Translations under genes and position numbers: made by a program
Shown here: positions 20,778 to 36,594 of the stretch, one piece after another
Position numbering within the stretch: the stretch's first letter is position 1
How the letters are laid out: each line of letters opens with the position of its first letter
Source: Pectinatus frisingensis
GTDB lineage: Bacteria > Bacillota > Negativicutes > Selenomonadales > Selenomonadaceae
Reading direction: 5' to 3'
Assembly: GCF_015732285.1 (NCBI RefSeq)
Contig: NZ_WIQU01000062.1
Location: 31,428-95,427 of the forward strand
Length of the DNA: 64,000 bases
The notes under the pieces: model-generated
Database searches by the model: none
Told to the model about the DNA's origin: nothing
What the model saw: the letters and a program-made list of their open reading frames with translations, nothing else

Positions 20778-20796
20778 CTTGATTATTGAGATAAAC

Positions 20797-20846: not shown

Positions 20847-20914
20847 AGAACTAACAATAAAGGGGTATTTATATTGGAATTTATTAAATAAAATAGTGAG
20901 TATCTATATTATAG

Positions 20915-21949
20915 TCAGTCAATAGACAGATTGAAGGCTTTTTTTATTTCAGCTATTGTGACAGGTCTGTTTTCCTCAACAGATCTTTTGGCAGCAAGAC
21001 CGATGAGTACAGGCTGTAATCCGTCGTTGGCATTCACGGTGGTTGGGGTGTTATTGCTGATTGAATCGACAAAAGAATTGATTTCAGCGGCGTAGGCCAT
21101 CATATAACGTTCAAGGAAAAAATACATTGGTTTTTCACCTGTAACGCCATCTTTATCACTAATTACAGCGGTAGAATTACTATCATTATTTATTGAAACA
21201 GCACCTTTGGTGCCAAATACTTCGGCTCGTTGATCATAACCATAAGCAGCTTGACGACAGTTATCTATTATGGCGGTTGCACCATTGGCTAGCTTCATTG
21301 TTATCACTGCGGTATCTATGTCACCAGCTTTGCCAATCTCAGGATTAACAGTCACAGAACCAATAGCAAATACTTCTTCTACTTCGCTGCCAGACAGATA
21401 ACGCACCATGTCAAAATCATGTATAGTCATATCAAGAAAAATACCACCGGATACTTTTATGTATTCTATAGGGGGAGCTTGTGGATCGCGGGAGGTTATT
21501 TTTATTATTTGCTGTCTGCCTATTTTACCAGCAGTAACGGCATCTTTTACAGCCTTGAAATTATGATCAAAACGACGATTGAATCCGACTTGATACTTTA
21601 ATCCGGAAGTTTTTACTACATCCAAAACTTCTTTTATTTTTTTTACGTCATGGTCTATAGGTTTTTCGCAAAATACATGTTTACCAGATTTAATTGCTTC
21701 TATAGATATTGATGAGTGAGTATCCGTTGAGGAACATATAAGAACGGCATCAATATCTGGATCAGCCAAGATTTTTTTGTAATCGATATAAGTGTTCTCA
21801 ATATCTAGGGAAGCTGCCCATTGTTTGCTATTATCATTTAAAAAAGGATCTGCGACAGCTTTGATCTTTGCATTTTTAACAAATTTTGTGATGCTTTCAC
21901 CGTGAACACGTCCGATTCGTCCTATACCAATAATACCAATGTTTACCAT
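20915..21949 (-). CDS. iolG: Inositol 2-dehydrogenase-type oxidoreductase (Gfo/Idh/MocA family)
   Basis: The 344-residue protein has the N-terminal Rossmann motif GIGRIGRVHG, the family EKP motif (FCEKPIDHD, near residue 95) and the catalytic DMTIHDFDM segment near 175. These fit myo-inositol/scyllo-inositol 2-dehydrogenases, which oxidise inositol to inosose with NAD+. Related sugar dehydrogenases share the motifs, so substrate is not certain, but the 3' end of an iolE gene 24 bp away supports an inositol role. That neighbour is a remnant and no other iol genes are present, so the pathway here looks partly lost. Confidence 0.85.
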   Translation of the reverse strand: MVNIGIIGIGRIGRVHGESITKFVKNAKIKAVADPFLNDNSKQWAASLDIENTYIDYKKILADPDIDAVLICSSTDTHSSISIEAIKSGKHVFCEKPIDHDVKKIKEVLDVVKTSGLKYQVGFNRRFDHNFKAVKDAVTAGKIGRQQIIKITSRDPQAPPIEYIKVSGGIFLDMTIHDFDMVRYLSGSEVEEVFAIGSVTVNPEIGKAGDIDTAVITMKLANGATAIIDNCRQAAYGYDQRAEVFGTKGAVSINNDSNSTAVISDKDGVTGEKPMYFFLERYMMAYAAEINSFVDSISNNTPTTVNANDGLQPVLIGLAAKRSVEENRPVTIAEIKKAFNLSID

Positions 21950-21972
21950 TTATATCACCTGTTATTAATTAA

Positions 21973-22299
21973 TATTTGGTTTGTTCAGGTGAAGATCATT
22001 TACGTGTATTGGATAAATATATTGGTAGAATTAAACATGTGCACCTAAAAGATGTCCGTAAAGGTATTGTTGAAAAAGTAAAAAATGAAAATTTAAGTTT
22101 CTTAAAAGGTGTAAGAATGGGAATGTTTACTGTTCCCGGTGATGGAGACATTGATTTTAGACCAATATTTGATATCTTAAATAAAAACAATTATAGTGGA
22201 TGGGCATTAGTAGAAGCCGAACAAGATCCGGCTGTTGCAAACCCATTGGAATATGCATTAAAGGCACATGAATATGTTGAAAAGATAGCAAATATTTAA
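21973..22299 (+). pseudogene. iolE: 3' remnant of iolE (inosose dehydratase)
   Basis: About 108 codons match the C-terminal third of 2-keto-myo-inositol dehydratase: [26 protein letters not shown], the [11 protein letters not shown] segment and a [16 protein letters not shown] end. IolE is normally about 300 residues. The frame is open only from a TAA at 21970-21972; the TTG at 21976 has no ribosome-binding site. The break lies 24 bp from the divergent iolG start, so an upstream deletion or rearrangement removed the first two thirds. The 3' end and its terminator remain intact, implying a fairly recent event. Confidence 0.85.
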
Positions 22300-22329
22300 T
22301 TTTAGTGAAAGTAATACTTGTAATATAGA

Positions 22330-22368
22330 AATGCTTGGGGTATCTTATAATAACTCAGGCATTTTTTG
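22330..22368 (+). terminator. Terminator left from the iolE locus
   Basis: AAATGCTTGGG pairs with CTCAGGCATTT across a 14-nt loop, and TTTTTTG follows. It lies just past the iolE remnant stop. Confidence 0.65.
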
Positions 22369-22516
22369 TTTAAGTAATTTAGTAAAGAGAATTTTATTAG
22401 TAATAAAAAGATGCATATGAGTTGTCAATATGAATCTCACTGTTTTGTGAGATTGTAACGGTGAATATGAGATACAGATCATTAGATATTCGCACATTTG
22501 TTAATAATAAACCATC

Positions 22517-22545
22517 TTGACATTTTGGACGGTTAATTTTATACT
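22517..22545 (+). promoter_or_regulatory. Consensus sigma-A promoter for hutD-rpiR
   Basis: TTGACA at 22517-22522 and TATACT at 22540-22545 are 17 bp apart. The expected transcription start is near 22552, right at the base of leader hairpin A. Confidence 0.8.
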
Positions 22546-22552
22546 GATGCTG

Positions 22553-22589
22553 AGCAATGGTGCTTATCAGAAGGGTAAGTGCCTTTTTA
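22553..22589 (+). promoter_or_regulatory. Leader hairpin A (promoter-proximal attenuator family)
   Basis: AGCAAT is followed by arms GGTGCTTA (22559-22566) and TAAGTGCC (22576-22583), which pair with two G-U wobbles, then TTTTT. It matches hairpins B to E in its AGCAA opening and GGnGCTTA arm. It is the shortest member of the family. The hutD start lies 27 nt further on. Confidence 0.65.
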
Positions 22590-22615
22590 TTTTTAAAAGA
22601 AGGGCGATATTATAG

Positions 22616-23188
22616 ATGGCTGTTGAGGTGTTTTTAAAAGAGAACTATACTGTCACTGATTGGAGCGGCGGAACCACTACGCAGATGTATATATTTCCGG
22701 AAAACGCTGAGTATAATAAAAGAAATTTTAAATTGCGGCTAAGTTCAGCAACTGTAAAAACACCAGTATCCGAATTTACTGATTTGAAGAATATAGACCG
22801 TATTTTGATGAGTCTTAATAAAAAGATAGAACTCGAGCATAATAAGCAGGAAAAGGTCATATTGAAACCTTTTGAGGCATATTATTTCAGCGGCGGCGAT
22901 AAAACTATGAGCTATGGATGTTGTGAGGACTTTAATGTCATGCTTAAGCACGGTTCATATAATAAAGCAAAGCTTTTTCTTAATGAGGCAGGGCAATTCG
23001 ATCTGTATGGTGATGCAGATGAGTGTTTTTTATATGTATATAAAGGTGAATACAAGGTAATAACACAAGATGGCAGCAGTTATACACTTCAGGCTTTACA
23101 TATGATGCATCTTGATGATTTTTCTGCGGGAAAAATTATAAGACTGGATATGCAGTCAAAGATGGTAGTATTTAAAATTAATTGGTAA
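22616..23188 (+). CDS. hutD: HutD family cupin-like protein
   Basis: The 190-residue protein has the HutD/Ves signature near its start (VTDWSGGTTTQMYIFPE, then FKLRLSSATV), a double-stranded beta-helix pattern and no membrane segment. HutD genes accompany histidine-utilisation operons; HutD has been proposed to act as a governor limiting hut expression rather than as an enzyme. It is the first gene of a unit with the rpiR regulator and sits just upstream of the operon carrying hutI and hutU, which supports the call. Confidence 0.88.
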   Translation: MAVEVFLKENYTVTDWSGGTTTQMYIFPENAEYNKRNFKLRLSSATVKTPVSEFTDLKNIDRILMSLNKKIELEHNKQEKVILKPFEAYYFSGGDKTMSYGCCEDFNVMLKHGSYNKAKLFLNEAGQFDLYGDADECFLYVYKGEYKVITQDGSSYTLQALHMMHLDDFSAGKIIRLDMQSKMVVFKINW

Positions 23189-23316
23189 CATTTATGCAGG
23201 CATTAAGTCCATAAGCGTTGATTGAAATAATGGCTGCAGGTAAGTGCTGTGTTTTGCATAATGTCTTGAGTATTAATCAATGAAAATTAATTATTATATT
23301 ATTAAGGGAAACACAT

Positions 23317-24177
23317 ATGGGAAAGAATATTGAGACCTTTGGGCAGCTGACAAATATGCTTAAGCTTATTGCAGATACATCTCCGACCTATAAAAAGATT
23401 GCTATGTATATAAATGATAATTATCTGCAGATAGTATTCATGACTACAAATGAATTGGCGGAGCAGGTTGGGGTGAGCCAAGGCAGTATATCAAGATTTT
23501 TTATGGCTTTAGGGTACAGAGGATATAATGACTTTTTGCAGAATCTGCAGAATATAGTAAGTAAGGAATTAACAGCTCCTAAGAGGCTTCAATTCACTGA
23601 AAAGCATGGTGTAAAAGATAAATATATGCATTCAATTTTTGACAATGAATTAGCTAATATGGAAAAGCTTGGCAGCATAATGGAAACAGATAATTACAAA
23701 AAAATAGTTGATATGATAGCTTCTGACAGACAGTTGATTTTAATGTCAGCCAGAATGTCGGCTACTATTGTTCCGTATGTACGGTATATATTGAACAAAA
23801 TGAGAAATATGGTTTATGAATATAAGCCGTCGACGCCGCAATGGGATACAGTAGAACTTATGGATCCTGAAAAAGTAAATATAATGGCAGTTATGTTTCC
23901 GCGCTATCCGCGTGTACTTGTTGAAAAATGTCAACGGCTTAAAGAAAAAGGGTTTCATATATATGGCATTACTGATAGTGAATTTTCTCCGTTGATAGAA
24001 TGTAGTGATGCTGCGGTATGTGTACCGCTTACGGTATCGTCAATCTTTGATATTTACAGTACACCTATGATTTTTTTCAATATATTATTACGGGATGCAG
24101 CAAAGAAAATACCGGGAATTTCTATGCGCATGGATAAAATAGAGAAGATAGAACTGCAAAATAAAGTTTACTATTGA
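23317..24177 (+). CDS. RpiR/MurR-family transcriptional regulator
   Basis: The 286-residue protein has an N-terminal RpiR helix-turn-helix (about 1-80; MTTNELAEQVGVSQGSISRFFMALGYRGYNDF is the core) and a C-terminal SIS domain (about 130-270; ILMSARMSATIVPYVRYIL). SIS domains usually bind phosphosugars, which is odd next to imidazole catabolism; the ligand here is unknown. Some RpiR proteins regulate hut genes in other bacteria. Its stop codon overlaps the -35 box of the next operon. It is the best local candidate to control the island. Confidence 0.88.
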   Translation: MGKNIETFGQLTNMLKLIADTSPTYKKIAMYINDNYLQIVFMTTNELAEQVGVSQGSISRFFMALGYRGYNDFLQNLQNIVSKELTAPKRLQFTEKHGVKDKYMHSIFDNELANMEKLGSIMETDNYKKIVDMIASDRQLILMSARMSATIVPYVRYILNKMRNMVYEYKPSTPQWDTVELMDPEKVNIMAVMFPRYPRVLVEKCQRLKEKGFHIYGITDSEFSPLIECSDAAVCVPLTVSSIFDIYSTPMIFFNILLRDAAKKIPGISMRMDKIEKIELQNKVYY

Positions 24178-24202
24178 CATTTATTTAATAGAAATTTATA
24201 AT
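24174..24202 (+). promoter_or_regulatory. Perfect consensus promoter of the seven-gene catabolic operon
   Basis: TTGACA (24174-24179) and TATAAT (24197-24202) with exactly 17 bp between them. The -35 box contains the TGA stop of the rpiR gene. The start is expected near 24209, about 10 nt before leader hairpin B. Confidence 0.88.
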
Positions 24203-24219
24203 ATGATATATCAATAAGA

Positions 24220-24263
24220 AGCAACGGCGCTTTATTCAAAAGGGAATAGAGTGCTTTTTTTTT
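24220..24263 (+). promoter_or_regulatory. Leader hairpin B (promoter-proximal attenuator family)
   Basis: AGCAAC precedes arms GCGCTTTATTC (24227-24237) and GAATAGAGTGC (24244-24254), 11 bp with two G-U pairs, followed by nine T. As drawn it is an effective intrinsic terminator about 90 nt before the first gene. A short palindrome AATGA-TATTT-TCATT lies just downstream at 24275-24289 and could be a protein site. Confidence 0.75.
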
Positions 24264-24353
24264 ATTATTTATTGAATGATATTTTCATTATAAAACATTT
24301 GTGAATGAAACGATTTAGCAATGAGATATATATTTTAACAGAGGATGATGCTT

Positions 24354-25625
24354 GTGATAGAACAGATGAAAAAAAGAACTGTCTCAATTAATAAAGAGAG
24401 ACTTCTATATCGTTTAGAAGAAATGTCACAGTTTGGATTGAATAAGAAAACAGGTGGAATTGACCGTCAGCTTGGCAGCCAGGCTGATAAAGATACAAGA
24501 AAATGGCTGAAGAATATATGGAATAATGAAATGAGGCTCAATGTTACAGTGGATGCTATTGCCAATATTTGGGGAAGCTATGGACAGCATTTAAAAAACA
24601 GGCCTATTGTTTTTGGTTCGCATCACGATAGCGTTCCTAATGGGGGCAGATTTGATGGTGCATTAGGTGTTTTGATAGCAATGGAGGCTATTCAGACGAT
24701 AAAAGAAAATAATATTGCAACGCAGCATCCGTTGGAAATTATTTCTTTCACAGGTGAAGAACCAAATAGCTTTTCTGTATCAACTCTAGGAAGTAAAGTA
24801 TTGTGCGGACGCTTGACTAAAAAGAATATAGATTTATTGAGTGATAAGAATACAGGAAAAACTTTAACGGAAACTATTGATGAGCTTGGCGGCAGCAGTC
24901 AGAGAATAGATGAGGCTAAGCTTGTGCCAGGTATGATGACAGCTTTTTTGGAAATGCATATTGAACAAGGGCAATGTTTGTACAAGATGGAAAAGGCTGT
25001 TGCTGCCGTAAACTGTATCACAGGCATATATCGTGAAATAATAACGGTAAAAGGTGAGGCTAATCATGCTGGAACGACTCATTTGCAGGACAGACGCGAT
25101 GCATTGTGCGCAGCCTCGGAATTGTGTCTTGCCATTGAGGCTATAATGAAACGATTGAATGATGTATCTGTTACAGTTGGACGTATACAAATAAAGCCAA
25201 ATGCTTCTAATATAATACCTGGTGAAGCAAAATTCACAATAGATATGAGAACTGCTTATCCCGGGAGAAAAAGACAGGCATTGGCAATATTGACAGAAAA
25301 GGTAAAAGAAATAACTGATAGGCGCGGTGTAAAAATTATACGTGAACTTAATCTTGATCAGTCGGAAATGCCTATGGATAAGGAAGTGATAAATGCTGTT
25401 TTACGGGCATCAGAACTTGAAGAACAGCAGTCAATACAGCTTGTGAGTATGGCTGGGCATGATGCGGCTAATATGGCACGCCTTACTAAGACAGCAATGC
25501 TGTTTGTACAAAGTGTGAAAGGATACAGCCATTGTCCGGAAGAATATACAGCATCACAGGAAATTGAAATAGCAGCACAGGTTTATCTTGATACATTATT
25601 GATCTTGGATAGGGAGTTAAAATAA
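24354..25625 (+). CDS. M20-family amidohydrolase (N-carbamoyl-amino acid hydrolase/allantoate amidohydrolase type)
   Basis: About 423 residues of the hydantoinase/carbamoylase branch of M20 dimetal hydrolases. Metal-binding motifs are present: GSHHDSVPNGGRFDGALG (His and Asp ligands), SFTGEEPNSF (Glu pair), MHIEQG (His) and a C-terminal SHCPEEYT (His). Family members cleave N-carbamoyl or ureido groups from amino acids. In this operon it could release glutamate from N-carbamoyl- or N-formyl-glutamate. An ATG at 24345 abuts the GAGG site, so the GTG at 24354 (9-nt spacing) is the likelier start. First gene of the operon; the next starts 1 bp after its stop. Confidence 0.88.
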   Translation: MIEQMKKRTVSINKERLLYRLEEMSQFGLNKKTGGIDRQLGSQADKDTRKWLKNIWNNEMRLNVTVDAIANIWGSYGQHLKNRPIVFGSHHDSVPNGGRFDGALGVLIAMEAIQTIKENNIATQHPLEIISFTGEEPNSFSVSTLGSKVLCGRLTKKNIDLLSDKNTGKTLTETIDELGGSSQRIDEAKLVPGMMTAFLEMHIEQGQCLYKMEKAVAAVNCITGIYREIITVKGEANHAGTTHLQDRRDALCAASELCLAIEAIMKRLNDVSVTVGRIQIKPNASNIIPGEAKFTIDMRTAYPGRKRQALAILTEKVKEITDRRGVKIIRELNLDQSEMPMDKEVINAVLRASELEEQQSIQLVSMAGHDAANMARLTKTAMLFVQSVKGYSHCPEEYTASQEIEIAAQVYLDTLLILDRELK

Positions 25626-25626
25626 T

Positions 25627-26964
25627 ATGACGGTAAAAATAATAAAAGCGTCAGCAATTTTTAATGATAATATTCTAAAAAATAAAAGAGCTGTTGCTGT
25701 GAATATGGATACAGGTGATATCAAGAAAATAGGCCTATTTGAAGAGTTGCAGCAGGAATATTCAGATGCAGACATAGAGGACTGGGGAGAGCTTATAATT
25801 GTCCCGGGGAGTGTTAATGCTCATAATCATAGCTTTCAGAGTCTATTGAGAGGTATAGCTGCTGACAGACCTTTTTTAGAATGGCGGGATAATTCTCTTT
25901 ACAAGTTTTCGCCGCGAATGCGTCTCGACGATATCTATACAGGAGCTTTATTTGCTTTTACTGAAATGATGAAATGCGGTGTTACTACCGTGTCAGATTT
26001 TTTTTATCTGCATCAGTTTGGCAGCCAGAGTGATGAAGCGGTAATTCAAGCGGCAAAGGATGCCGGTATACGGCTGGTTGTTGCCAGTACTATGTATGAT
26101 TGGAGCGGAGCACCTTCAGGTTATGTAGAAAATGTAAAAATAGCTAGGAAACGTACTGAAATCTTGATGAAAAAATATTCCGGCGGCATGGTAAAAGTAA
26201 TACCGGCACCACATAGCCTTCATGCAGCTTCACCGGAAATGATAATGGCTGGGCATAAGCTGGCACAGGAATATGGTACGCCATATCATATTCATGTGGC
26301 AGAGGAAATGTTTGAAGTGGAACAGGTCAAAAGGGAACATGGTATGACACCACTTGCTTATTTGGATTCATTGGGAGTAGTTGATGAGCATATGTCAATA
26401 ATTCATGGTGTATGGCTCAATAATACTGAAATAAAAACAATGGGGCAAAAGGGAGCACATCTTATATACTGTCCATCCAGCAATATGTTTTTGGCTGATG
26501 GGATCACTGATATACCAGCTTATATGAAAAATGGCGTACCGATTGCCTTGGGCAGCGATGGTGCCTGTGGTAATAATCGTATCAGCGTATTCGAAGAAAT
26601 GCGCATGGTTTCCATATTGCAGAAGGCAAAAACCTGCAATGCACTTTGTGTAAATTACGAGGACTCTTTTAAAATGGGAACACAAAATGGAGGAATTGTA
26701 CTAGATATTCCTGTCGGTAAAATAATACCAGGCTATAAAGCTGATTTTGTCGGTATATCAGTAAAGGACTTTTCTATGCAGCCGTTAACGGAAAAAGGTC
26801 ATCAGTTTCTACCAAACATGGTTTATTCTATGCAGCCTACTGCGATTGGCCGGGTGGCAGTTAACGGCAGAACAACCGTGATAAATAATCAGCTTGTCAA
26901 TATAGTTGAGAGCAAAGTGCTTGAACTTATATCGGCAACAATGCATCATTTGGAACAAGACTAA
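25627..26964 (+). CDS. Amidohydrolase-family deiminase, HutF-like
   Basis: The 445-residue protein belongs to the SsnA/TRZ-ATZ/HutF group of metal-dependent deaminases. Visible motifs are NAHNHSFQSLLRG (metal His pair), PAPHSLHAASPEMI and HIHVAEEMFEVEQ, both close to formimidoylglutamate deiminase, and ALGSDGACGNN (metal Asp). HutF converts N-formimino-glutamate to N-formyl-glutamate plus ammonia, the step after HutI, which fits the operon. Triazine and guanine-type deaminases share the fold, so substrate is inferred from context. It may hand its product to the M20 hydrolase encoded immediately upstream. Confidence 0.82.
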   Translation: MTVKIIKASAIFNDNILKNKRAVAVNMDTGDIKKIGLFEELQQEYSDADIEDWGELIIVPGSVNAHNHSFQSLLRGIAADRPFLEWRDNSLYKFSPRMRLDDIYTGALFAFTEMMKCGVTTVSDFFYLHQFGSQSDEAVIQAAKDAGIRLVVASTMYDWSGAPSGYVENVKIARKRTEILMKKYSGGMVKVIPAPHSLHAASPEMIMAGHKLAQEYGTPYHIHVAEEMFEVEQVKREHGMTPLAYLDSLGVVDEHMSIIHGVWLNNTEIKTMGQKGAHLIYCPSSNMFLADGITDIPAYMKNGVPIALGSDGACGNNRISVFEEMRMVSILQKAKTCNALCVNYEDSFKMGTQNGGIVLDIPVGKIIPGYKADFVGISVKDFSMQPLTEKGHQFLPNMVYSMQPTAIGRVAVNGRTTVINNQLVNIVESKVLELISATMHHLEQD

Positions 26965-26987
26965 ATATATAATAGGGGAGATTATAG

Positions 26988-28187
26988 ATGTACCTGACAG
27001 AAGAAGAACAGAAAATGCTAAATGGTGATTATGGGCAGGGAACGCAGCTGGCAATGGAAATATTGGCAGCCATAGGTGAGGCTTATGATGCACCCAAAAT
27101 GGTGCCGGTGACGCGTACTCATGTTGCCCTCAGCAATCAGGAAGCTGATTTATGGTTTGCAGAAAAACTGGTAAAAGGCGGGGCAAAATGCTGCATTCGT
27201 CCCACCGTAAATCCGAGCTTCAATTTAAAGCAGTTTCAGGAAATAACAACTATAGAAAAAGAAGATGAAGAAATCGTGATGCGTACACATGCCGCTTATA
27301 ATAAGCTCGGTGCGGTAATGACTTATGACTGTACGCCATATTTAGAAAAAAATGTACCCCGCTTTGGTGAAATAATTTCTTTTTCGGAATCAAGTGCCAC
27401 ACCATTTGTTAATTCTGTTTATGGAGCTCGCACCAATAGAGAATCAGCACAAAGTGCCTTATGCAGCGCTGTAACTGGTGTTACACCATATTATGGTTAT
27501 TTGCTCAAGGAAAATCGTGCCGGACAGGTATTGGTCCATGTAGAAGCAGATATGGAAGATGATTTTGCCTATCAAATGCTGGGGTATTTCGCACCTAAAA
27601 AGATCGGATTTGACATACCTGTATTTGAAGGATTGAAAAATCCAAGCAAAGAAGCTTTGATGAATCTTGGTGCACAGCTTAATACTGGAGGAAATGTAGC
27701 GCTTTATCATATACTGGGGTTTACGCCGGAAGCATTAACTATGGAAGAAGCATTTCAAGGAAAGGCACCGCAGCATGAAGTGGTTATTACTGATGATGAT
27801 TTAAAGGCTATGCGGGAAGAAATTTCTGATAAGAAAGGCAAAATAGATTTTGCTCTTTATGGTTGTCCACATTTTACAATTGATCAGGTAAGCACGGTAG
27901 CTGATCTGGTGAATGGCAAAAAACTCGCTGTACCGCTTTTTATAATGACTTCTTCCTTGACACACAGTCTGGCACAAAAGATGGGATATATGGATATCAT
28001 AAGGGCTGCCGGTGGTGAAATAGTAGAGGATACCTGTATGGATCAGCCCTGCTGGAAATTCCTTTATGGCAAAAAGGGAATAACTGATTCACCAAAATGT
28101 GCTTATTATACTAAAAGGCGTGATATGCAGTTTGTGATAGCACCATTAAAAGACAGTGTCATTGCAGCATTGAAAGGGGAGTATTGA
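26988..28187 (+). CDS. Aconitase X catalytic (large) subunit
   Basis: The 399-residue protein matches the DUF521 aconitase X large subunit, starting MYLTEEEQKMLNGDYG and containing TRTHVALSNQEADLWF and SFSESSATPFVNSVYGARTNRE. Cysteines that could hold the Fe-S cluster occur in SALCSAV, LYGCPH and DTCMDQPC. Known aconitase X enzymes are dehydratases: cis-3-hydroxy-L-proline dehydratase in bacteria and phosphomevalonate dehydratase in archaea. Neither obviously belongs with hutI and hutU, so this is the puzzling member of the operon. The next gene, 1 bp downstream, is its swivel subunit. Confidence 0.9.
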   Translation: MYLTEEEQKMLNGDYGQGTQLAMEILAAIGEAYDAPKMVPVTRTHVALSNQEADLWFAEKLVKGGAKCCIRPTVNPSFNLKQFQEITTIEKEDEEIVMRTHAAYNKLGAVMTYDCTPYLEKNVPRFGEIISFSESSATPFVNSVYGARTNRESAQSALCSAVTGVTPYYGYLLKENRAGQVLVHVEADMEDDFAYQMLGYFAPKKIGFDIPVFEGLKNPSKEALMNLGAQLNTGGNVALYHILGFTPEALTMEEAFQGKAPQHEVVITDDDLKAMREEISDKKGKIDFALYGCPHFTIDQVSTVADLVNGKKLAVPLFIMTSSLTHSLAQKMGYMDIIRAAGGEIVEDTCMDQPCWKFLYGKKGITDSPKCAYYTKRRDMQFVIAPLKDSVIAALKGEY

Positions 28188-28188
28188 T

Positions 28189-28593
28189 ATGGATAAGCAG
28201 TATAAATGCCATAAAATATCCGGTGGTAAAGTTAAAGGTGAATTATTGTTTTCTAAAGATGGATTATGTTTTTATCTGATAGATCCGAAGACAGGTAAAA
28301 TTATAGAAAAAGAACACTGCCTTTATGGACAGTCTATTGCCGGAAAAATTCTCGTATTCCCATATGGTAAAGGAAGTTCTGTAGTACAGGCCGATGGTAT
28401 GTATCAATTGAAAATGACCGGCATGAATCCAGCGGCAATGATAGTTGTAAATGCTGATACCACTTTGGCTGCAAGCGCAATCATTCTTAAAGCGCCGATG
28501 GTAAATAAAATGAGTGGTGATTTTTACAAGGAGCTGCATAACGGAGATATGGCAGAGCTGGATGCAGATAATGGTATTTTAACTAGAATATGA
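28189..28593 (+). CDS. Aconitase X swivel (small) subunit
   Basis: The 134-residue DUF126 protein has the swivel-domain motif YGQSIAGKILVFPYGKGSS followed by a conserved VVQADGMYQL and a MIVVNADTTLAASAIILKAPMV strand. It forms the two-subunit (type II) aconitase X with the large subunit encoded just before it. Separate subunits rather than a fusion are typical of type II enzymes. Confidence 0.9.
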   Translation: MDKQYKCHKISGGKVKGELLFSKDGLCFYLIDPKTGKIIEKEHCLYGQSIAGKILVFPYGKGSSVVQADGMYQLKMTGMNPAAMIVVNADTTLAASAIILKAPMVNKMSGDFYKELHNGDMAELDADNGILTRI

Positions 28594-28606
28594 AAGGGAT
28601 ATTTGC

Positions 28607-29578
28607 ATGAAACCTGTAAAAATTTGGATAATTGATGAAGAATGGCCGGAATATGAATATGAAACTACCGTTTTAAAAAGAGAATTACCGGGCTGTGAAA
28701 TAAGATATTCAACTTATGACAATGAAAAGGATTTGGAAGAGTTCGGCCGGTACGCTGATATTATTTTAGCTCAGATATACGTTGATTTTTCTGCACAGAT
28801 AATAAATAAATTGGAATGCTGCAAAGGAATAGCCGTTTATGGAGGCGGTTATGACAGAGTTGATATCGCAGCAGCGCGTGCCAGAGGAATAGGTGTTACC
28901 AATGTTCATGGTTATTGTATAGAAGATATAGCAGATTACGTTATGGCGGCAATATACAGTATATGTAAACCATTAAATGGTTATAAGGATAATATTAAAG
29001 CAGGAATGTGGGGAGCACAGGCAGTAAAAAATGTAATTTTTCACAGAATTTCGCAGCGGACGCTGTTTGTAGCAGGATTTGGTCTGGTCGGCAGAGGCGT
29101 GGCACAAAAAGCATTGTCAATGGGGATGAAGGTAATAGCTTATGATCCTTTTGTACCGGAAGAAAAAATGCAGGAAATGCACGTTATGCCGGTATGTTTG
29201 GAAGATGGATTTAAACAAGCAGATTTTGCAAGTATACATATAATATGTAATGAAAAAACAACCAATCTTATAACGAAGAAATATTTTTCCATGATGAAAC
29301 CGACAGCTTATCTTATAAACACCGCCCGTGGAAAGGTACTTAATGAAGCAGAACTTATTGAAGCAGTAGAAAACAAAACCATTGCAGGAGCTATTATTGA
29401 TGTTGTAAATGTTGAACCACCGACAGGCAGGGAACAAATTTTTAATACAGGAAATATCACAGTAACACCGCATATATGCTACATATCGGCTGAATCTTAT
29501 AAAGAATTGAAGGAACGTACAGCATATAATGCTATAAAAATGCTGCGCGGTGAAAGACCTGATGACTTAGTGAACTGA
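28607..29578 (+). CDS. D-isomer-specific 2-hydroxyacid dehydrogenase
   Basis: The 323-residue NAD(P)-dependent oxidoreductase has the Rossmann motif AGFGLVGRG near residue 150, and the catalytic Arg (INTARGKVLNEAEL), Glu (VNVEPPTG) and His (TPHICYIS) of the family. It resembles the CtBP/phosphoglycerate-dehydrogenase-like branch of unknown substrate. In this operon a 2-oxo or 2-hydroxy acid with an imidazole side chain, such as imidazole-pyruvate/lactate, is a possible substrate; this is inference. It lies 13 bp after the aconitase X small subunit and 17 bp before hutI. Confidence 0.88.
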   Translation: MKPVKIWIIDEEWPEYEYETTVLKRELPGCEIRYSTYDNEKDLEEFGRYADIILAQIYVDFSAQIINKLECCKGIAVYGGGYDRVDIAAARARGIGVTNVHGYCIEDIADYVMAAIYSICKPLNGYKDNIKAGMWGAQAVKNVIFHRISQRTLFVAGFGLVGRGVAQKALSMGMKVIAYDPFVPEEKMQEMHVMPVCLEDGFKQADFASIHIICNEKTTNLITKKYFSMMKPTAYLINTARGKVLNEAELIEAVENKTIAGAIIDVVNVEPPTGREQIFNTGNITVTPHICYISAESYKELKERTAYNAIKMLRGERPDDLVN

Positions 29579-29595
29579 AAGAACAAGGTGATAAA

Positions 29596-30840
29596 ATGGA
29601 ACGTTTGCTGATAAAAAACTTGTCACAGATTGCAACACCTATAGGAAAGTCGGCTTTGAAAGGCAAGAAAATGGAAGACATAAAGTTTTATCATGATGGA
29701 GCCATTTATTGCGAAGATGGAATAATACAAGCAGTTGGTAATACTCAGGCGATAGTGCACAGATTAAAACCTGCAGCTGAAATGAAAATAATTGATGGTA
29801 AAGGAAAATGCGCTGTACCAGGTTTTATTGATCCGCATACGCATTTTTTGTTTGGCGGCACTCGTGCTGATGAATTTATTTCACGGCTGGAAGGTGTACC
29901 GTATATGGAGCTTTTGAAAAGGGGCGGTGGAATTGTCAGCACGATGAAGGCTACACGTGCTATGACGGAAGATGAAATGTATGCTGCCGGTAAAAAAACA
30001 CTGGAAAATATGATAAAACAGGGTTTCACCATGATAGAAGGAAAAAGCGGCTATGGGCTTGATCATGATACAGAATTAAAGATGCTGCGCGCTATGAAAA
30101 AAATGAATGAAACTTTACCAGTATCATTAAAAACAACATTTCTCGGAGCACATGCTGTTCCACCAGAATTTGCCGGTAATGCAGATGAGTTTATAGATTT
30201 TTTAATTGAAAAAGTTTTACCGGAAGTTGCAAAAGATAATCTTGCACAATTTTGCGATGTCTTTTGTGAAAAAGGTGTATTTACTGTAAAGCAGTCCAAG
30301 AAACTGCTGCTGGCTGCCCAGCAAATGGGATTAAAGTCAAAAATACATGCTGATGAGATAGTATCCACTGGTGGCGCCGGACTTGCTGTGCAGGTCGGAG
30401 CAATTAGTGCCGATCATTTATTGGCTGTATCGAGTACTGATATTGAAAAGCTGTCAGTAAGCAACACAGTGGCAGTACTTTTGCCAATCACGGCATTTTG
30501 TATGCGAAAAGACTTTGCCCCGGCTCGCCGCATGATAGATGCAGGATGTGCTGTAGCACTGGCAAGCGACTATAATCCGGGCAGCTGTTATTCATATGCA
30601 GCACCGCTTTTACTGGCACTTGCTGTTATAAGCATGAAGATGAGTATTAATGAGACTGTTACGGCTATAACGCTGAATGCTGCGGCAGCTGTTGATGAGG
30701 CTGAAACGGCAGGCAGCCTGGAAATAGGTAAAAAGGCAGATATTCTGCTTTTAAACAAACCGGATTATCGTTTTTTAGTTTATCTAACTGGTGTAAATAT
30801 AGTTGAGCATGTTATAAAAAATGGCAAACTGTTATTTTAA
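29596..30840 (+). CDS. hutI: Imidazolonepropionase
   Basis: HutI hydrolyses 4-imidazolone-5-propionate to N-formimino-L-glutamate, the third step of histidine degradation. The 414-residue protein shows the metal His pair in DPHTHFLFGGTRADEF, GKSGYGLD, the HADEIVSTGGAGLA segment, SADHLL and the Asp ligand in LASDYNPGS. All are characteristic of imidazolonepropionase, and length is normal. It directly precedes hutU, reversing the usual biochemical order but typical as a gene pair. Confidence 0.95.
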   Translation: MERLLIKNLSQIATPIGKSALKGKKMEDIKFYHDGAIYCEDGIIQAVGNTQAIVHRLKPAAEMKIIDGKGKCAVPGFIDPHTHFLFGGTRADEFISRLEGVPYMELLKRGGGIVSTMKATRAMTEDEMYAAGKKTLENMIKQGFTMIEGKSGYGLDHDTELKMLRAMKKMNETLPVSLKTTFLGAHAVPPEFAGNADEFIDFLIEKVLPEVAKDNLAQFCDVFCEKGVFTVKQSKKLLLAAQQMGLKSKIHADEIVSTGGAGLAVQVGAISADHLLAVSSTDIEKLSVSNTVAVLLPITAFCMRKDFAPARRMIDAGCAVALASDYNPGSCYSYAAPLLLALAVISMKMSINETVTAITLNAAAAVDEAETAGSLEIGKKADILLLNKPDYRFLVYLTGVNIVEHVIKNGKLLF

Positions 30841-30866
30841 AAAATTATGCAAGGGAGTAATTTGGA

Positions 30867-32879
30867 ATGGCAAAATTAGTAACTGATGTAAAGCTGGACA
30901 ATGTTTTTCCAGATATGCCGGAAGTCAAAAAAGGCATTCGTCGTGCACCGAGCCGCGGGTTTCTACTTAGCAATGATCAGACGAAAACAGCTTTAAAAAA
31001 TGCCCTGCGTTATCTGCCTAAAGAACTGCATGAAAAAGCTGCACCGGAATTTTTACATGAATTGAAAACATATGGTCGTATATACGCATATAGGTGGCGG
31101 CCGCAAGGACGCATCTACGGTAAACCGATAGATGAATATAAGGGAAATTGTATTGAAGGAAAAGCTTTTCAGGTAATGATCGATAATAATCTTGATTTTG
31201 AAGTGGCACTTTATCCTTATGAACTCGTAACATATGGTGAAACAGGCAGTGTATGCCATGATTGGCTTGGTTATAGACTGATAAAAAAGTATCTGGAAAT
31301 AATGACTAATGAACAAACTCTGGTAATAGAATCTGGCATGCCAATCGGTTTGTTTCCATCCAAACCGAATGCACCGCGTGTTATAAATACTAATGCCTTG
31401 ATGATTGGTATGTTTGATAATGAAAGGGATTGGGAAATCGCTGAGGAAATGGGTGTAGCCAATTATGGGCAGATGACAGCCGGTGGCTGGATGTATATTG
31501 GACCGCAGGGAATTGTTCATGGTACGTATAACACACTTTTAAATGCCGGTCGTCTGCACTTGGGAATTCCTAATGACGAAGATTTGCGCGGACATATATT
31601 CGTAAGCTCAGGAATGGGTGGAATGAGTGGCGCACAGCCTAAGGCTGTTGAAATAGCTAATGGGGTGGGTATAATAGCCGAAGTTGATTATTCCCGTATA
31701 AAAACGCGTCTGGATCAGGGATGGGTAAGTGAATGCTATGATAATCTTGATGAAGTATTTAAATCAGCTAATAAGCATATGAAAAATAGGATGACCATAT
31801 CTATAGCTTATAATGGCAATATAGTTGATCTTTTAGAGTATATTGTAAAAAATGATATAAAAATCGACCTTATGAGTGATCAAACTTCATGCCATGTTGT
31901 CTATGAGGGTGGATACTGCCCGCAGGGAATTACCTTTGAAGAACGTACACGCATGCTGTCAGAAGACCGTGAAACTTTTAAAAAATTTGTAGATAAAAGT
32001 CTGCGGCGTCAGTATAGGCTCATAATGAGCTGTGTAAAAAAAGGAACATATTTCTTTGACTATGGCAATTCTTTTCTTAAAGCAGTATATGATGCCGGTG
32101 TAAAAGAATTATCCAAGAATGGCATTGATGAAAAAGATGGATTTACTCTGCCGTCCTATGTTGAAGATATAATGGGACCGCATCTTTTTGATTATGGCTA
32201 TGGTCCATTTCGCTGGGTATGCCTTAGCGGTAAGCACAAAGATCTTGTGCAGACAGATAAGGCCGCTATGTCCTGTATCAATCCCGATCGCCGTTACCAG
32301 GATAGAGATAACTATAACTGGATACGTGATGCAGAAAAAAATAAAATGGTAGTTGGTACACAGGCACGCATACTTTATCAGGATGCTGAAGGAAGAATAA
32401 AAATTGCTCTTAAATTTAATGAAATGGTACGGAAGGGAAAAGTCGGACCAATAATGCTGGGACGTGATCATCATGATGTCAGCGGCACAGATTCGCCATT
32501 CAGAGAAACGTCTAATATTAAAGATGGCAGCAATGTTATGGCTGATATGGCTGTACAGTGCTATGCCGGTAATGCGGCCCGCGGCATGAGTCTGATTTCA
32601 CTGCACAATGGTGGTGGTACCGGTATAGGTAAAGCTATAAACGGTGGATTTGGACTGGTACTTGATGGCAGTGAAAGAATTGATAAGATAATAAAATCAG
32701 CTATACTCTGGGATGTAATGGGAGGAGTAGCCCGCCGTAACTGGGCACGCAATCCTCATGCAATGGAAGTGGCAGAAGAATTTAATAAAAAATATGAAGG
32801 CAAGGGACATATCACTATACCTTTTGTGGCAGACGAAGATATGATAAATACTCTTGTTGATAAAATGTTTGATGAATAA
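30867..32879 (+). CDS. hutU: Urocanate hydratase (long form)
   Basis: Urocanase adds water to urocanate with a tightly bound NAD+, giving imidazolonepropionate. At 670 residues this is the longer form, similar in length to animal urocanase, rather than the roughly 550-residue proteobacterial type. Conserved stretches include FVSSGMGGMSGAQPKA, the NAD-site region, DQTSCHVVYEGGYCPQG, VGPIMLGRDHHDVSGTDSP and the late SLHNGGGTGIGKAINGG. A thiourocanate-active homologue would look similar. It is the last gene of the operon; no hutH is found in the window. Confidence 0.94.
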   Translation: MAKLVTDVKLDNVFPDMPEVKKGIRRAPSRGFLLSNDQTKTALKNALRYLPKELHEKAAPEFLHELKTYGRIYAYRWRPQGRIYGKPIDEYKGNCIEGKAFQVMIDNNLDFEVALYPYELVTYGETGSVCHDWLGYRLIKKYLEIMTNEQTLVIESGMPIGLFPSKPNAPRVINTNALMIGMFDNERDWEIAEEMGVANYGQMTAGGWMYIGPQGIVHGTYNTLLNAGRLHLGIPNDEDLRGHIFVSSGMGGMSGAQPKAVEIANGVGIIAEVDYSRIKTRLDQGWVSECYDNLDEVFKSANKHMKNRMTISIAYNGNIVDLLEYIVKNDIKIDLMSDQTSCHVVYEGGYCPQGITFEERTRMLSEDRETFKKFVDKSLRRQYRLIMSCVKKGTYFFDYGNSFLKAVYDAGVKELSKNGIDEKDGFTLPSYVEDIMGPHLFDYGYGPFRWVCLSGKHKDLVQTDKAAMSCINPDRRYQDRDNYNWIRDAEKNKMVVGTQARILYQDAEGRIKIALKFNEMVRKGKVGPIMLGRDHHDVSGTDSPFRETSNIKDGSNVMADMAVQCYAGNAARGMSLISLHNGGGTGIGKAINGGFGLVLDGSERIDKIIKSAILWDVMGGVARRNWARNPHAMEVAEEFNKKYEGKGHITIPFVADEDMINTLVDKMFDE

Positions 32880-33134
32880 GTTTATGTTACCGGGTAGATT
32901 GACATTAAAATTGAAGAGTAAGCAGAAAATGATGAAATGGTATCTGCTTCGTGCCCAGGATATAATAAAGACTCATATAAAAGCATTAGCGAATGCAATT
33001 GCATTTGTAAAAATTAAGTATATATATTATCATTAAAGGATTATTAAAATGAGAAAAATGAGTATTGAATGCATAAATATATAAGTTTGATATAATAAAA
33101 TAAAGATATTTTAATATCATAATAAAATGTATAA

Positions 33135-33163
33135 TTGACAACCTAATAAATGCATATTATAAT
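33135..33163 (+). promoter_or_regulatory. Perfect consensus promoter of the ABC transporter unit
   Basis: TTGACA (33135-33140) and TATAAT (33158-33163) are separated by 17 bp. Transcription should start near 33170, just before leader hairpin C. Confidence 0.88.
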
Positions 33164-33175
33164 GAGTACATAAAA

Positions 33176-33217
33176 AGCAATGGCGCTTATCCTTTAGAGG
33201 ATAGGTGCCATTTTTAT
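33176..33217 (+). promoter_or_regulatory. Leader hairpin C (promoter-proximal attenuator family)
   Basis: AGCAA is followed by arms AATGGCGCTTATCC (33179-33192) and GGATAGGTGCCATT (33199-33212), 14 bp with two G-U pairs and a 6-nt loop, ending in a T-run. It is the cleanest member of the family. UAG-AGGA-UAG spans the loop and 3' arm. Confidence 0.8.
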
Positions 33218-33328
33218 TATATTTAGGCATAAATGAAATTATCATTAATGCAAGTGAATGATTTATTACAATCACAATATAAGGATAATATATAAGCTTA
33301 AGTATTTATAATATTATGGAGGTAAAAA

Positions 33329-34120
33329 ATGGGATCATTAATAGATGCATTTACACCTAAGGGAAAAATGAAATCTACATATGTCGTTGTAATTGCAGCA
33401 ATAGCATTCGCAATAATTTTACTGCTGTGGTCGGCATTTACTTTAACAGGAGCGGTTGATCAGTTTTTTTTGCCACCGCCTACTGATGTAATAAAAACAG
33501 CTATAAGTTTATTTACTCAGGGAGATTTCATAAAAGATATAGGGATAACGGTTTTTCGTGTTATGGCAGGGTTCATAATCGCGGCTGCAGTAGCGTTGCC
33601 GCTGGGACTTATGATAGGAACCTATGCACCTATGTCAGCTTTTTTGGAATATGTAGTTTCCTTTGTCAGATACCTGCCGGCATCAGCATTTATTCCATTG
33701 TTTATTTTGTGGATAGGAATAGATGAACCGGAAAAGATAGCGGTAATTATCCTGGGAAGTTTTCCACAGCTGATTTTGATGATTGCAACTAATGTGCGCA
33801 ATGTACCGATGTCAATGATTGAAGTCTCCTATACACTGGGAACATCAAAGGCTGATGTTTTATGGAAAGTAATTTTACCAAAAGCGCTGCCCGATATAAT
33901 GGATACATTTCGTACTGTTTTAGGCTGGGCATGGACATATGTAATAGTTGCAGAACTAGTAGGCGCATCTTCCGGCATAGGGTTTATGATAATTCAGTCA
34001 CAGAGGATGATGAATACGGCTAATATTTTTGTTGGCATTTTATCTATAGGATTTATAGGAATGATTATTGATGTTTTATTTAAACTTTGTCATAAGAAAT
34101 TTTTCTTCTGGAATAATTAA
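33329..34120 (+). CDS. ABC transporter permease, nitrate/sulfonate/taurine (SsuC/TauC) type
   Basis: The 263-residue inner-membrane protein has about six helices and the BPD_transp_1 EAA-type loop (SYTLGTSKADVLWKVILPKALP, near residue 170-190). The N-terminal region with FFLPPPTDVIKTAISLF is typical of the SsuC/TauC group. It pairs with the ATPase 22 bp downstream and the substrate-binding lipoprotein at 35444. The transported compound is unknown; linkage to the hut-type operon and the shared leader suggest an imidazole or ureido compound. GGAGG lies 8 nt before the ATG. Confidence 0.92.
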   Translation: MGSLIDAFTPKGKMKSTYVVVIAAIAFAIILLLWSAFTLTGAVDQFFLPPPTDVIKTAISLFTQGDFIKDIGITVFRVMAGFIIAAAVALPLGLMIGTYAPMSAFLEYVVSFVRYLPASAFIPLFILWIGIDEPEKIAVIILGSFPQLILMIATNVRNVPMSMIEVSYTLGTSKADVLWKVILPKALPDIMDTFRTVLGWAWTYVIVAELVGASSGIGFMIIQSQRMMNTANIFVGILSIGFIGMIIDVLFKLCHKKFFFWNN

Positions 34121-34142
34121 TGCATAACAGGAAGGGATACAA

Positions 34143-34955
34143 ATGCAGATTAGAGATATAGAAAATACCAATTTAGGGCTTGAGGTAGAGAATGTAACTA
34201 AAATATATAACATAAAAAAAGGCAATGTTTTAGCATTGGATAATGTTAGTTTGCATGTACATCCCAATGAATTTTTATCGCTGTTGGGAACGTCAGGCTG
34301 TGGAAAATCGACATTACTGCGGATCATTTGTGGATTAGAGAAAACAACGGAAGGTCGAATAGTAAATCAGGGGAAAGTTATAACAGGTCCGGGGGCAGAT
34401 AGAGGAATGGTCTTTCAGGCATATAATCTTTTTCCATGGATGACTATTTCTGAAAATATTCAATTTGGTTTAAAGCAAAAAAAAGCTTCTTCTAAAGAAG
34501 CCAGGGAAATAGCAGAACATTATACAAATCTTGTTGGTCTTAACGGTTTTGAAACGCAGTATCCTAATTCTCTTTCCGGAGGGATGAGGCAGAGGGTGGC
34601 AATTGCCAGAGCTTTAGCCAATGATCCCAGCGTGCTTCTTTTGGACGAACCTTTTGGAGCATTGGATATGCAGACAAGAGGAGTTATGCAGGAACTATTG
34701 TTGAACATATGGCAAAAATCACCAAAAACGATAATAATGGTGACTCATGATGTAGATGAAGCAATATTTTTGGCTGACAGGGTAGCGATAATGTCAGCCC
34801 GGCCCGGTAAAATTAAAGAAATACTGGATGTAAAGAAAGGACTGCCAAGGCCGCGTAACTATCATGTAAAAACATCACAGGAGTTTATCAAATATAAAGA
34901 AAGGGCAACTGATATTATCAGGGAAGAAAGTATGAAACTTTTAAATAGTGTATAA
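34143..34955 (+). CDS. ABC transporter ATP-binding protein, SsuB/TauB type
   Basis: The 270-residue ATPase has Walker A GTSGCGKST, Q-loop, signature LSGGMRQRV, Walker B VLLLDEPFGALD and switch VTHDVDEA. These place it in the nitrate/sulfonate/taurine importer group, as does the FPWMTISENIQFG segment. It energises the permease encoded just upstream. A small unknown protein gene follows after 14 bp. Confidence 0.94.
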   Translation: MQIRDIENTNLGLEVENVTKIYNIKKGNVLALDNVSLHVHPNEFLSLLGTSGCGKSTLLRIICGLEKTTEGRIVNQGKVITGPGADRGMVFQAYNLFPWMTISENIQFGLKQKKASSKEAREIAEHYTNLVGLNGFETQYPNSLSGGMRQRVAIARALANDPSVLLLDEPFGALDMQTRGVMQELLLNIWQKSPKTIIMVTHDVDEAIFLADRVAIMSARPGKIKEILDVKKGLPRPRNYHVKTSQEFIKYKERATDIIREESMKLLNSV

Positions 34956-34969
34956 AAAGGAGAATTTTT

Positions 34970-35200
34970 ATGTATTTGATAAGAAAGTTTATTACTGAGA
35001 ATCAGCAGGAAACCAGGCTGGTTGTAGGATATACCTATGAATTGGAAAATGCGGTAGAATCCATTGAAATTAATTATGGTGAGCCTGATTCTATAGAAGA
35101 TATTACAGGCGGTAAGATACTTTATTATAATAAATCAGGTAAAAAGATGGCTTTTTGGGTTCGTGAAATGAGTCTAATAGAAAAAGGCAATAAATTCTAA
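34970..35200 (+). CDS. Small protein of unknown function in the ABC transporter unit
   Basis: The 76-residue protein is acidic in the middle, has no membrane segment or Cys motif, and reads as a small alpha/beta domain (YLIRKFITENQQETRLVVGYTYE... then GGKILYYNKSGKKMAFWVREM). I do not recognise a family. AAAAGGAG precedes the ATG with 7-nt spacing and only 14 bp separate it from the ATPase, so translation is likely. A role as an accessory or regulatory protein for the transporter is conceivable but unproven. Confidence 0.7.
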   Translation: MYLIRKFITENQQETRLVVGYTYELENAVESIEINYGEPDSIEDITGGKILYYNKSGKKMAFWVREMSLIEKGNKF

Positions 35201-35320
35201 TAATAGGATGATTTTGATAATAACGAGCTACAATTTTAGTATGGGCTTATAGTCCTTTTCGGATGAAAATCATAAAACAAATATTAACAATAAGGTGTGA
35301 TGATATTACTCTAATGGCAA

Positions 35321-35366
35321 AGCAAAGGCGCTTATTCCAAGTAAGGGAGTAGGCGTTTTTGTTTTA
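35321..35366 (+). promoter_or_regulatory. Leader hairpin D (promoter-proximal attenuator family)
   Basis: AGCAA precedes arms GCGCTTATTCC (35328-35338) and GGGAGTAGGCGT (35345-35356), with G-U pairs and a 6-nt loop, then TTTTTGTTTT. The promoter is less clear than for A to C; TTAACA at 35284-35289 is a candidate -35 without a good -10. It lies between the 76-codon ORF and the binding-protein gene, so may also act on readthrough from upstream. Confidence 0.7.
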
Positions 35367-35443
35367 TTTTATATTAAGAAATGAATAATTTATTCATTCA
35401 ATATGGTGGTTATTTAATTTATATATTTTGGGAGGTAGCAACT

Positions 35444-36478: not shown

Positions 36479-36529
36479 CTTGAATAGTTAAAAACTCACT
36501 GATGATGATATATAAAAAATAATAGTTCA

Positions 36530-36592: not shown

Positions 36593-36594
36593 GG

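Follow-up and report, generated by a model that had tools for sequence, protein, structure and literature searches.

How does an operon for histidine utilisation obtain urocanate when it lacks histidine ammonia-lyase (HutH), the textbook entry to the urocanate pathway? This question is raised by a locus of Pectinatus frisingensis. The window, by which we mean the whole stretch of 64,000 nucleotides that was analysed, belongs to contig C24 of a 2.92 Mb Pectinatus genome (Selenomonadaceae, Negativicutes); G, C and L with a number are our handles for genomes, contigs and loci. On the forward strand, seven intact and closely packed open reading frames (ORFs; intergenic gaps of 1-26 bases) form an operon at 24345-32879, and HutH was not found among its genes. 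They encode an M20-family amidase, a HutF-like amidohydrolase, the large and small subunits of an aconitase X, a D-2-hydroxyacid dehydrogenase (D2HDH), HutI and HutU. The genes of HutD and an RpiR regulator lie directly upstream and those of an NMT1-type ABC transporter (33329-36478) downstream (Table 1). An initial annotation had described hutU, hutI, the aconitase X pair and the dehydrogenase in an operon without hutH, and indeed all seven ORFs were intact and matched their families. Its end of the operon at 32879 stood, but its start at 24354 had to be moved, as the first ORF begins 9 bases earlier at 24345.

We propose, with a probability of about 0.6, that the operon degrades imidazole-lactate to glutamate without histidine ammonia-lyase and that its aconitase X is an imidazole-lactate dehydratase. 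In this scheme the two-subunit aconitase X, with a [4Fe-4S] cluster as Lewis acid, would remove water from imidazole-lactate to yield urocanate, and HutU, HutI, the HutF-like deaminase and the M20 amidase would convert urocanate via formiminoglutamate and formylglutamate to glutamate. D2HDH would interconvert imidazolepyruvate and D-imidazole-lactate, while in other strains a nickel-pincer isomerase would do the stereochemical work instead, and the NMT1-type ABC transporter would import the acid. Histidine would possibly enter via transamination and reduction to imidazole-lactate. The sequences themselves show which genes are present, that they cluster repeatedly, that HutH and aconitase X interchange and which active-site residues are kept or lost; from these we infer the substrate, the cluster type, the direction and the roles of the HutF-like protein, the M20 amidase and the transporter.

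We surveyed 189 genomes of the order, counting matches to the window's protein at E <= 1e-20 as aconitase X. In total, 12 genomes contained aconitase X, 18 urocanase and 12 the HutH family (PF00221). Aconitase X was present in 12 of the 18 urocanase genomes and in 0 of the 171 urocanase-free ones (Fisher 6e-15, kinship ignored). Six of the 18 carried PF00221 only, six aconitase X only and six both, and none carried neither. The genomes with aconitase X only (G044, G045, G046, G047, G048 and G181) are 82-100% complete; G044, G045 and G046 reach 99-100%, G046 consisting of two contigs at 99%. In all six urocanase genomes free of aconitase X we found the same run of RpiR, M20, HutF and HutU genes, with HutI seen in five (the stretch of G176 ended first) and HutH in the same stretch in five. 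In G010, G149 and G158, an ABC ATPase gene separates HutH from M20; the adjacent binding protein, examined in one genome (G149), is of the polar amino-acid type and not NMT1. The HutUs of five HutH-only genomes, 76-78% identical to the window's HutU, which is the sole urocanase match in its genome, nest among the aconitase X-linked HutUs in a FastTree tree without support values. The downstream pathway thus appears common to both kinds of operon, with aconitase X taking the place of HutH, and this strongly suggests that the product feeding HutU is urocanate. Since the HutH-only relatives share the M20/HutF/HutU operon and the two genes interchange, it appears that aconitase X can supply urocanate in place of HutH.

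Scanning genome contigs with two short peptide patterns yielded 33 aconitase X loci of 34-90% identity, and the family is probably larger. Ten belong to genomes of the order and 23 lie outside it, the taxa including Sporolactobacillus, Heyndrickxia, Bifidobacterium tibiigranuli, Propionispora, Faecalispora, a Propionibacterium metagenome-assembled genome, Candidatus Dichloromethanomonas and Synergistales. Around these 33 loci we found HutF-like and HutU genes (25 each), M20 and HutI (24 each), RpiR homologues (22), D2HDH (21), NMT1 binding proteins (23) and permease homologues (18); the ABC ATPase cluster occurs at 23, some members coming from other ABC systems. Because the genes recur in this way, the gene set is not a chance assembly. 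Of the 23 genomes outside the order, 21 were searched for urocanase and PF00221, those of L069 and L077 being left out. Urocanase was found in 20 of the 21 and PF00221 in eight; the sole genome without urocanase is a Chloroflexi with an aconitase X of 34% identity, which we used as outgroup. Several of these genomes are metagenome-assembled, and the absence of HutH is weaker there than in G044, G045 and G046. Taken together, 32 genomes have both aconitase X and urocanase. Eighteen of them lack any PF00221 protein, and ten of the other 14 have an intact one with Ala-Ser-Gly.

Whether hutH lies elsewhere in the genome had been set beforehand as a test by the initial annotation. A PF00221 search of the window genome found one protein only, split over the ends of contigs C69 and C68. 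In HutH, an Ala-Ser-Gly tripeptide forms the 4-methylideneimidazole-5-one (MIO) group. We aligned the split protein with 25 PF00221 proteins of relatives, among which 17 have Ala-Ser-Gly, two Cys-Ser-Gly and six neither. In the protein of the window genome the tripeptide is absent (SVGY---LSPEAHM versus SVGASGDLAPLSHM in P. brassicae) and Met stands where the YSLRC motif has Tyr. We therefore rejected the possibility that the genome hides a true hutH elsewhere: a homologue exists, it is MIO-less, and the PF00221 search of this genome found no canonical MIO-type HutH. On C68 (2-6815) the homologue is followed by a betaine-type ABC system with an OsmF-like binding protein, a ferredoxin-domain protein and an O-acetylhomoserine sulfhydrylase-like gene. 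Close homologues (62-63%) occur in G189 and G191, and no such neighbours appear on their short loci. Ergothionase, which belongs to the HutH superfamily and is a trimethylamine lyase, is also described without MIO (PMC13405746). The MIO-less homologue is more likely a betaine lyase than a HutH, and we note it as a candidate histidine-betaine or ergothioneine lyase.

The partner genes of aconitase X indicate what kind of acid is handled. Of the 33 genomes, 21 have a D2HDH of at least 48% identity at the aconitase X locus. A nickel-pincer isomerase of group 22, at least 54% identical to the G044 protein (495 bits with NF052515, cut-off 400), occurs in seven (G044, G045, G180-G183 and G194); matches below 45% identity (a second copy in G045, two in G178, and those in G190 and G191) were excluded from this close type. 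The isomerase adjoins aconitase X in G180, G182 and G183, is one gene away in G181 and lies about 5 kb off in G194, and in P. cerevisiiphilus and P. haikarae it adjoins the NMT1 ABC genes. A close D2HDH at the aconitase X locus and a close isomerase were found together in no genome (six versus six in the order, 21 versus seven of the 33; Fisher 0.002 and 2e-4, respectively, kinship ignored). Distant LarA homologues of one cluster adjoin aconitase X in L074 and L077, the LarA domain having been tested for L074. In L074 (Candidatus Dichloromethanomonas, G205, a genome in which PF00221 was not found), the LarA homologue and aconitase X are flanked by HutU and, downstream, by glutamate-fermentation-like genes; read by eye and not by family search, the latter look like a cyclodeaminase and methylaspartate route. 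IorB-like and acyl-CoA ligase genes are present at five loci (L052, L055, L073, L075 and L080), with IorA-like genes clustered at four, as would be expected of an aryl-pyruvate branch; the IorA tested stayed under its equivalog cut-off (554 of 651). Since the partners are D2HDH or a nickel-pincer isomerase and, at some loci, an indolepyruvate-type oxidoreductase (IOR), the substrate would be a 2-hydroxy acid. According to PMC7583248 and PMC11770544, LarA enzymes have 2-hydroxy acids as substrates and one of them acts on phenyllactate.

The region of L073, which holds HutH, aconitase X, an isomerase, a D2HDH paralogue, IorA/IorB-like genes and an acyl-CoA ligase gene, would also suit the opposite direction. 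Aconitase X would then be a hydratase turning urocanate, made by HutH or imported, into imidazole-lactate and further into imidazolepyruvate and imidazoleacetate, in a branch that would serve energy or redox needs. However, the 18 of 32 genomes without a HutH homologue would need an outside source of urocanate, and the downstream HutU/HutI/HutF/M20 set is kept at most loci, so that we regard this direction as improbable. Another operon, L170 in G045 (C1, 4288-10001), lies behind a leader of the AGCAAnGGYGCTT type described below and encodes an NMT1-type binding protein, a D2HDH paralogue (42%) and look-alikes of IorA, IorB and acyl-CoA ligase; it is possibly an oxidative branch from aryl-lactates. 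HisD-family and short-chain dehydrogenase/reductase (SDR) genes occur at aconitase X loci (L060, L065, L066, L069, L071 and L072), HisD at six loci and SDR at eight in total. The one HisD tested exceeds the histidinol dehydrogenase cut-off (474 versus 243.8 bits), and HisD at these loci may be a plain histidinol dehydrogenase. The combination of HisD and SDR genes is reminiscent of the logic of HpsN, in which a 2-hydroxy acid is reportedly made from a diol.

By all sequence features tested, the window protein is a member of aconitase X. The large subunit matched 7cnr (E 1e-75, 37% identity) and the small subunit 7cnr_B (E 2e-21). The AlphaFold model of the large subunit (pLDDT 93) superposed on 7cnr with a TM score of 0.89-0.92, and its top five PDB matches were aconitase X chains, followed by five of aconitase or homoaconitase. 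The window and all 30 clade rows, among them L074 and L077, share without exception the Fe-S ligands Cys115, Cys293 and Cys350 as well as Glu134, Ser135, Lys370 and Tyr374; three of the 33 loci were dropped from this alignment, namely L064 (cut off), L079 (outgroup) and L052, which stands in a 25-row alignment. Ser63 is invariant in nine of nine aligned small subunits. In the solved aconitase X enzymes, Glu134 and Lys370 bind the hydroxyl group, Ser135 and Tyr374 the carboxylate, and Ser63 acts as base (PMC8184944). We counted Ser135, Lys370 and Tyr374 as carboxylate-binding residues that are kept, together with Ser63.

The specificity sites, on the other hand, are altered. The phosphate loop Gly48-Val49-Ser50 of the Thermococcus enzyme is replaced by a shorter, different one; the equivalent of Asn79 is kept as Asn75, and that of Asn53 varies with the alignment. 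Of the hydroxyproline enzyme, Asp203 has no counterpart, Trp35/Leu27 is Tyr29, Thr72 is Val65, and the position equivalent to Ile206 is uncertain in the alignment; the large subunit reached 222.6 bits with the hydroxyproline-type model NF051439, below its cut-off of 700. We thus rejected both phosphomevalonate dehydratase and hydroxyproline dehydratase, as the landmark residues are gone. With the landmarks of both activities absent, the earlier statement that known aconitase X substrates do not fit holds. Right after Cys350, the pair Asp352-Gln353 is invariant in the window and the 30 clade rows, again with L074 and L077. Neither solved enzyme nor the Chloroflexi outgroup has it, and it is nearly invariant in the 25-row alignment that includes the outgroup, which makes it a candidate ring contact. 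The entry of an imidazole hydroxy acid through aconitase X toward urocanate, put forward as a hypothesis in the initial annotation, is thus favoured on comparative grounds: aconitase X interchanges with HutH, a number of genomes are devoid of HutH homologues, D2HDH interchanges with the isomerase, and neither known specificity site is kept.

As improbable as the hydratase direction is that aconitase X has a substrate unrelated to urocanate, such as hydroxyproline, and only shares the operon in strains that use external urocanate. The substrates known for aconitase X are indeed unrelated (PMC8184944), and four loci (L054, L056, L059 and L063) have no HutU or HutI in the DNA examined, their genomes nevertheless having urocanase. 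Yet this reading conflicts with the absence of aconitase X from all urocanase-free genomes of the order, with the missing landmark residues and with L077, where HutU still adjoins an aconitase X of 42% identity.

Several observations weigh against the degradation of imidazole-lactate by this route. The HutH/aconitase X contrast alone gives p = 0.05 with 18 genomes, or 0.04 when the MIO-less protein is scored as no HutH (kinship ignored in both). Because six of the 12 aconitase X genomes of the order and eight of the 21 outside it also have a HutH-family protein, aconitase X is not only a stand-in for HutH, and the four loci without HutU or HutI fit the proposal poorly. The isomerase genomes G045, G182 and G183 also carry a D2HDH paralogue of 40-42%, followed in G045 and G182 by an IorA-like gene, and G178, G190 and G191 have a close D2HDH plus an isomerase homologue of 37-43%. 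The chief difficulty is the chemistry implied by the kept carboxylate pocket. Known aconitase X takes the proton next to the carboxylate and the hydroxyl group from C3. Imidazole-lactate would need the reverse, with the hydroxyl group on C2 and the proton taken from C3 next to the ring, and a 3-hydroxy acid would suit the conserved pocket at least equally well. Two solutions offer themselves: the ring sits where the carboxylate normally binds, or the enzyme in truth acts on the 3-hydroxy isomer. In the second case aconitase X would make urocanate from 3-hydroxy-3-(imidazol-4-yl)propanoate by its usual chemistry (C2 proton, C3 hydroxyl), an acid for which we know of no natural source. The residues that hold the carboxylate and the C3 hydroxyl in the solved enzymes are all invariant (roles from PMC8184944), and the SDR genes at eight loci could be added in favour. 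However, the partners of aconitase X, that is D2HDH, the LarA-type isomerase and the IOR-type oxidoreductase, use 2-hydroxy or 2-oxo acids (LarA chemistry from PMC7583248 and PMC11770544), and we consider the 3-hydroxy acid unlikely.

Table 1. Positions in the window of the operon, its neighbouring genes and the leader elements
Feature	Position	Strand	Basis or remark
Promoter-like match with leader	22517-22590 (leader 22553-22590)		before hutD
HutD-family protein	22616-23188	+	Pfam PF05962, 96.4 bits (cut-off 25)
RpiR-family regulator (HTH_6 and SIS)	23317-24177	+	Pfam PF01418, PF01380
Promoter-like TTGACA-17-TATAAT with leader	24174-24263 (leader 24220-24263)	+	before M20/aconitase X operon
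M20 hydantoinase/carbamoylase-family amidase	24345-25625	+	TIGR01879, 320 bits (cut-off 204)
HutF-like amidohydrolase	25627-26964	+	PF01979
Aconitase X large subunit	26988-28187	+	PF04412, 441.5 bits (cut-off 31.5)
Aconitase X small (swivel) subunit, putative catalytic Ser63	28189-28593	+	PF01989, 94.6 bits (cut-off 27)
D-2-hydroxyacid dehydrogenase (D2HDH)	28607-29578	+	PF02826, PF00389
HutI imidazolonepropionase	29596-30840	+	TIGR01224, 453.8 bits (cut-off 298)
HutU urocanate hydratase	30867-32879	+	TIGR01228, 433 bits (cut-off 375)
Promoter-like match with leader	33135-33220 (leader 33176-33220)		before permease
ABC transporter permease, NMT1/TauABC-type	33329-34120	+	ORF
ABC transporter ATPase, same NMT1-type system	34143-34955	+	ORF
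Leader without strong promoter match	35319-35370		before binding-protein gene
NMT1-family substrate-binding protein	35381-36478	+	PF09084, PF13379

The HutF-like and M20 proteins were assigned at superfamily or subfamily level only. For the former, the likeness to HutF noted by the initial annotation was confirmed within the amidohydrolase superfamily, but equivalence was not, as the equivalog cut-off of TIGR02022 was missed (176.6 bits versus 413.05) and the HutF structure 3mdu (E 7e-25) ranked behind other deaminases in the PDB. The protein would serve as formimidoylglutamate deiminase. The M20 amidase, whose closest solved structure is the N-carbamoyl-L-amino acid hydrolase 3n5f, would hydrolyse N-formylglutamate (or formiminoglutamate). 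D2HDH resembles McyI and other 2-hydroxyacid dehydrogenases most closely among solved structures and would act as an imidazolepyruvate/imidazole-lactate oxidoreductase. The NMT1 binding protein scored slightly under the cut-off of SsuA_fam (TIGR01728; 153.9 versus 163.5 bits), and its ABC transporter probably takes up the pathway substrate.

Four leaders in this region consist of the motif 5'-AGCAAnGGYGCTT-3', a hairpin and a T-run, and three of them directly follow promoter matches. The matches before hutD, the M20 operon and the permease score 11 or 12 of 12; overall, the promoter scan was no richer than shuffled sequence (59 versus 60.5 +- 9.1) and the terminator scan was above it (22 versus 8.2 +- 2.7). 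An Rfam search of 18000-38000 gave seven matches at E <= 1, none at the gathering score. The motif has eight copies in the genome, compared to one for the reversed control, and five are accompanied by a hairpin and T-run. The fifth such leader precedes a HisC paralogue and a GlnP-type permease on C65 of the same genome (L136, 8253-10078). In G046 the HisC-permease pair lies behind a similar leader, and G043, G180 and G182 have the HisC paralogue without permease or leader in the DNA examined. Like leaders in relatives, judged by eye, precede M20, NMT1-ABC and group 22 isomerase genes and also nifH-like and 5-oxoprolinase-like genes. Because of the latter two, the signal is probably nitrogen-related and not specific to the pathway. 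The leader looks like a nitrogen-linked transcription attenuator.

The HisC paralogue, which scored slightly under the hisC cut-off (267.6 of 276.55 bits), could make imidazolepyruvate from histidine. Its presence here and in G046 with a similar leader is compatible with histidine transamination and would also suit a feed other than the one proposed: a lactate derived from N-methylhistidine, an acid derived from hercynine or ergothioneine, or histidine itself by direct removal of ammonia. The MIO-less HutH homologue beside its betaine-type ABC system points the same way. So does the score of 360 bits of the M20 amidase with the model of ErtE (NF058540), an N-carbamyl-glutamate amidase that presumably has its role in the ergothioneine pathway. 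That pathway was rejected, as both the ErtE cut-off (520) and that of thiourocanate hydratase (301 of 930 bits) were missed. Moreover, the interleaved HutUs of HutH-only and aconitase X operons favour plain urocanate, and an ammonia-lyase would need neither isomerase nor D2HDH. Such a feed is therefore rather unlikely, though somewhat less so than a hydratase or an unrelated substrate, and imidazole-lactate remains the substrate that we prefer.

The aconitase X described here resembles mevalonate 5-phosphate dehydratase (type IIb, Thermococcus kodakarensis, 7cnr/7cns) in its two subunits, fold, three Fe-S cysteines and catalytic Ser/Glu/Lys/Tyr, but differs in the changed phosphate loop, the clade-specific Asp352-Gln353 and the hut operon context. 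With the hydroxyproline type it shares fold and catalytic core; it lacks an equivalent of Asp203, however, and has type II Fe-S ligands (Cys293, where the wild-type type I enzyme has Ser). As in the classical histidine utilisation layout, hutHUIFG, HutU, HutI, HutD, a HutF-like deaminase and an amidase are encoded in one cluster. In contrast to that layout, HutH is missing, aconitase X, D2HDH and a different ABC transporter are added, and the amidase is of the M20 family, with no HutG-family protein among the named genes (HutG was not sought genome-wide). The proposed sequence from 2-oxo acid via 2-hydroxy acid to aryl-acrylate parallels the phenyllactate dehydratase route of Stickland fermenters. 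Phenyllactate dehydratase uses CoA esters and radical chemistry, whereas the aconitase-type hydro-lyase proposed here would act on the free acid. For group 22 of the LarA superfamily, matched by NF052515 in relatives and not in the window, the substrate proposed here is imidazole-lactate.

Among the matches listed, titles and abstract openings contained no direct route from imidazole-lactate to urocanate, and none of these matches linked aconitase X (DUF521) with urocanate or imidazole-lactate. Imidazolyl-lactate in Pseudomonas reportedly goes through histidine and not directly to urocanate, as is said to have been found by Coote and Hassall. Imidazole-lactate itself is reported to be a metabolite of microbial origin that has biological effects (PMC12583827). 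In the aconitase X subclasses IIc-IIf, which are uncharacterised, the landmarks of both known activities are missing (PMC8184944). A new function is probable for the clade described here.

At slightly better than even odds, we further suggest that this aconitase X forms urocanate by removing water from free imidazole-lactate, the imidazolium ring acting as electron sink, the part played by a carboxylate in known aconitases, and without CoA, radical or MIO chemistry. Histidine degradation would thereby have a second point of entry, distributed across Negativicutes, Clostridia, Bacilli, Actinobacteria and further groups, with D2HDH or the group 22 isomerase as partner, the latter as an imidazole-lactate racemase, and a possible IOR-type branch to imidazoleacetate. 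A recent preprint survey counts species as histidine degraders only when hutH is found (PMC13320830), and genomes with hutU but without hutH would be misread by such hutH-based surveys. If the proposal is true, it would give a new enzyme activity to a clade of aconitase X in which the landmarks of both established activities are missing, suggest a function for a group of nickel-pincer isomerases and widen aconitase chemistry to include a carbon acid that owes its acidity to a ring.

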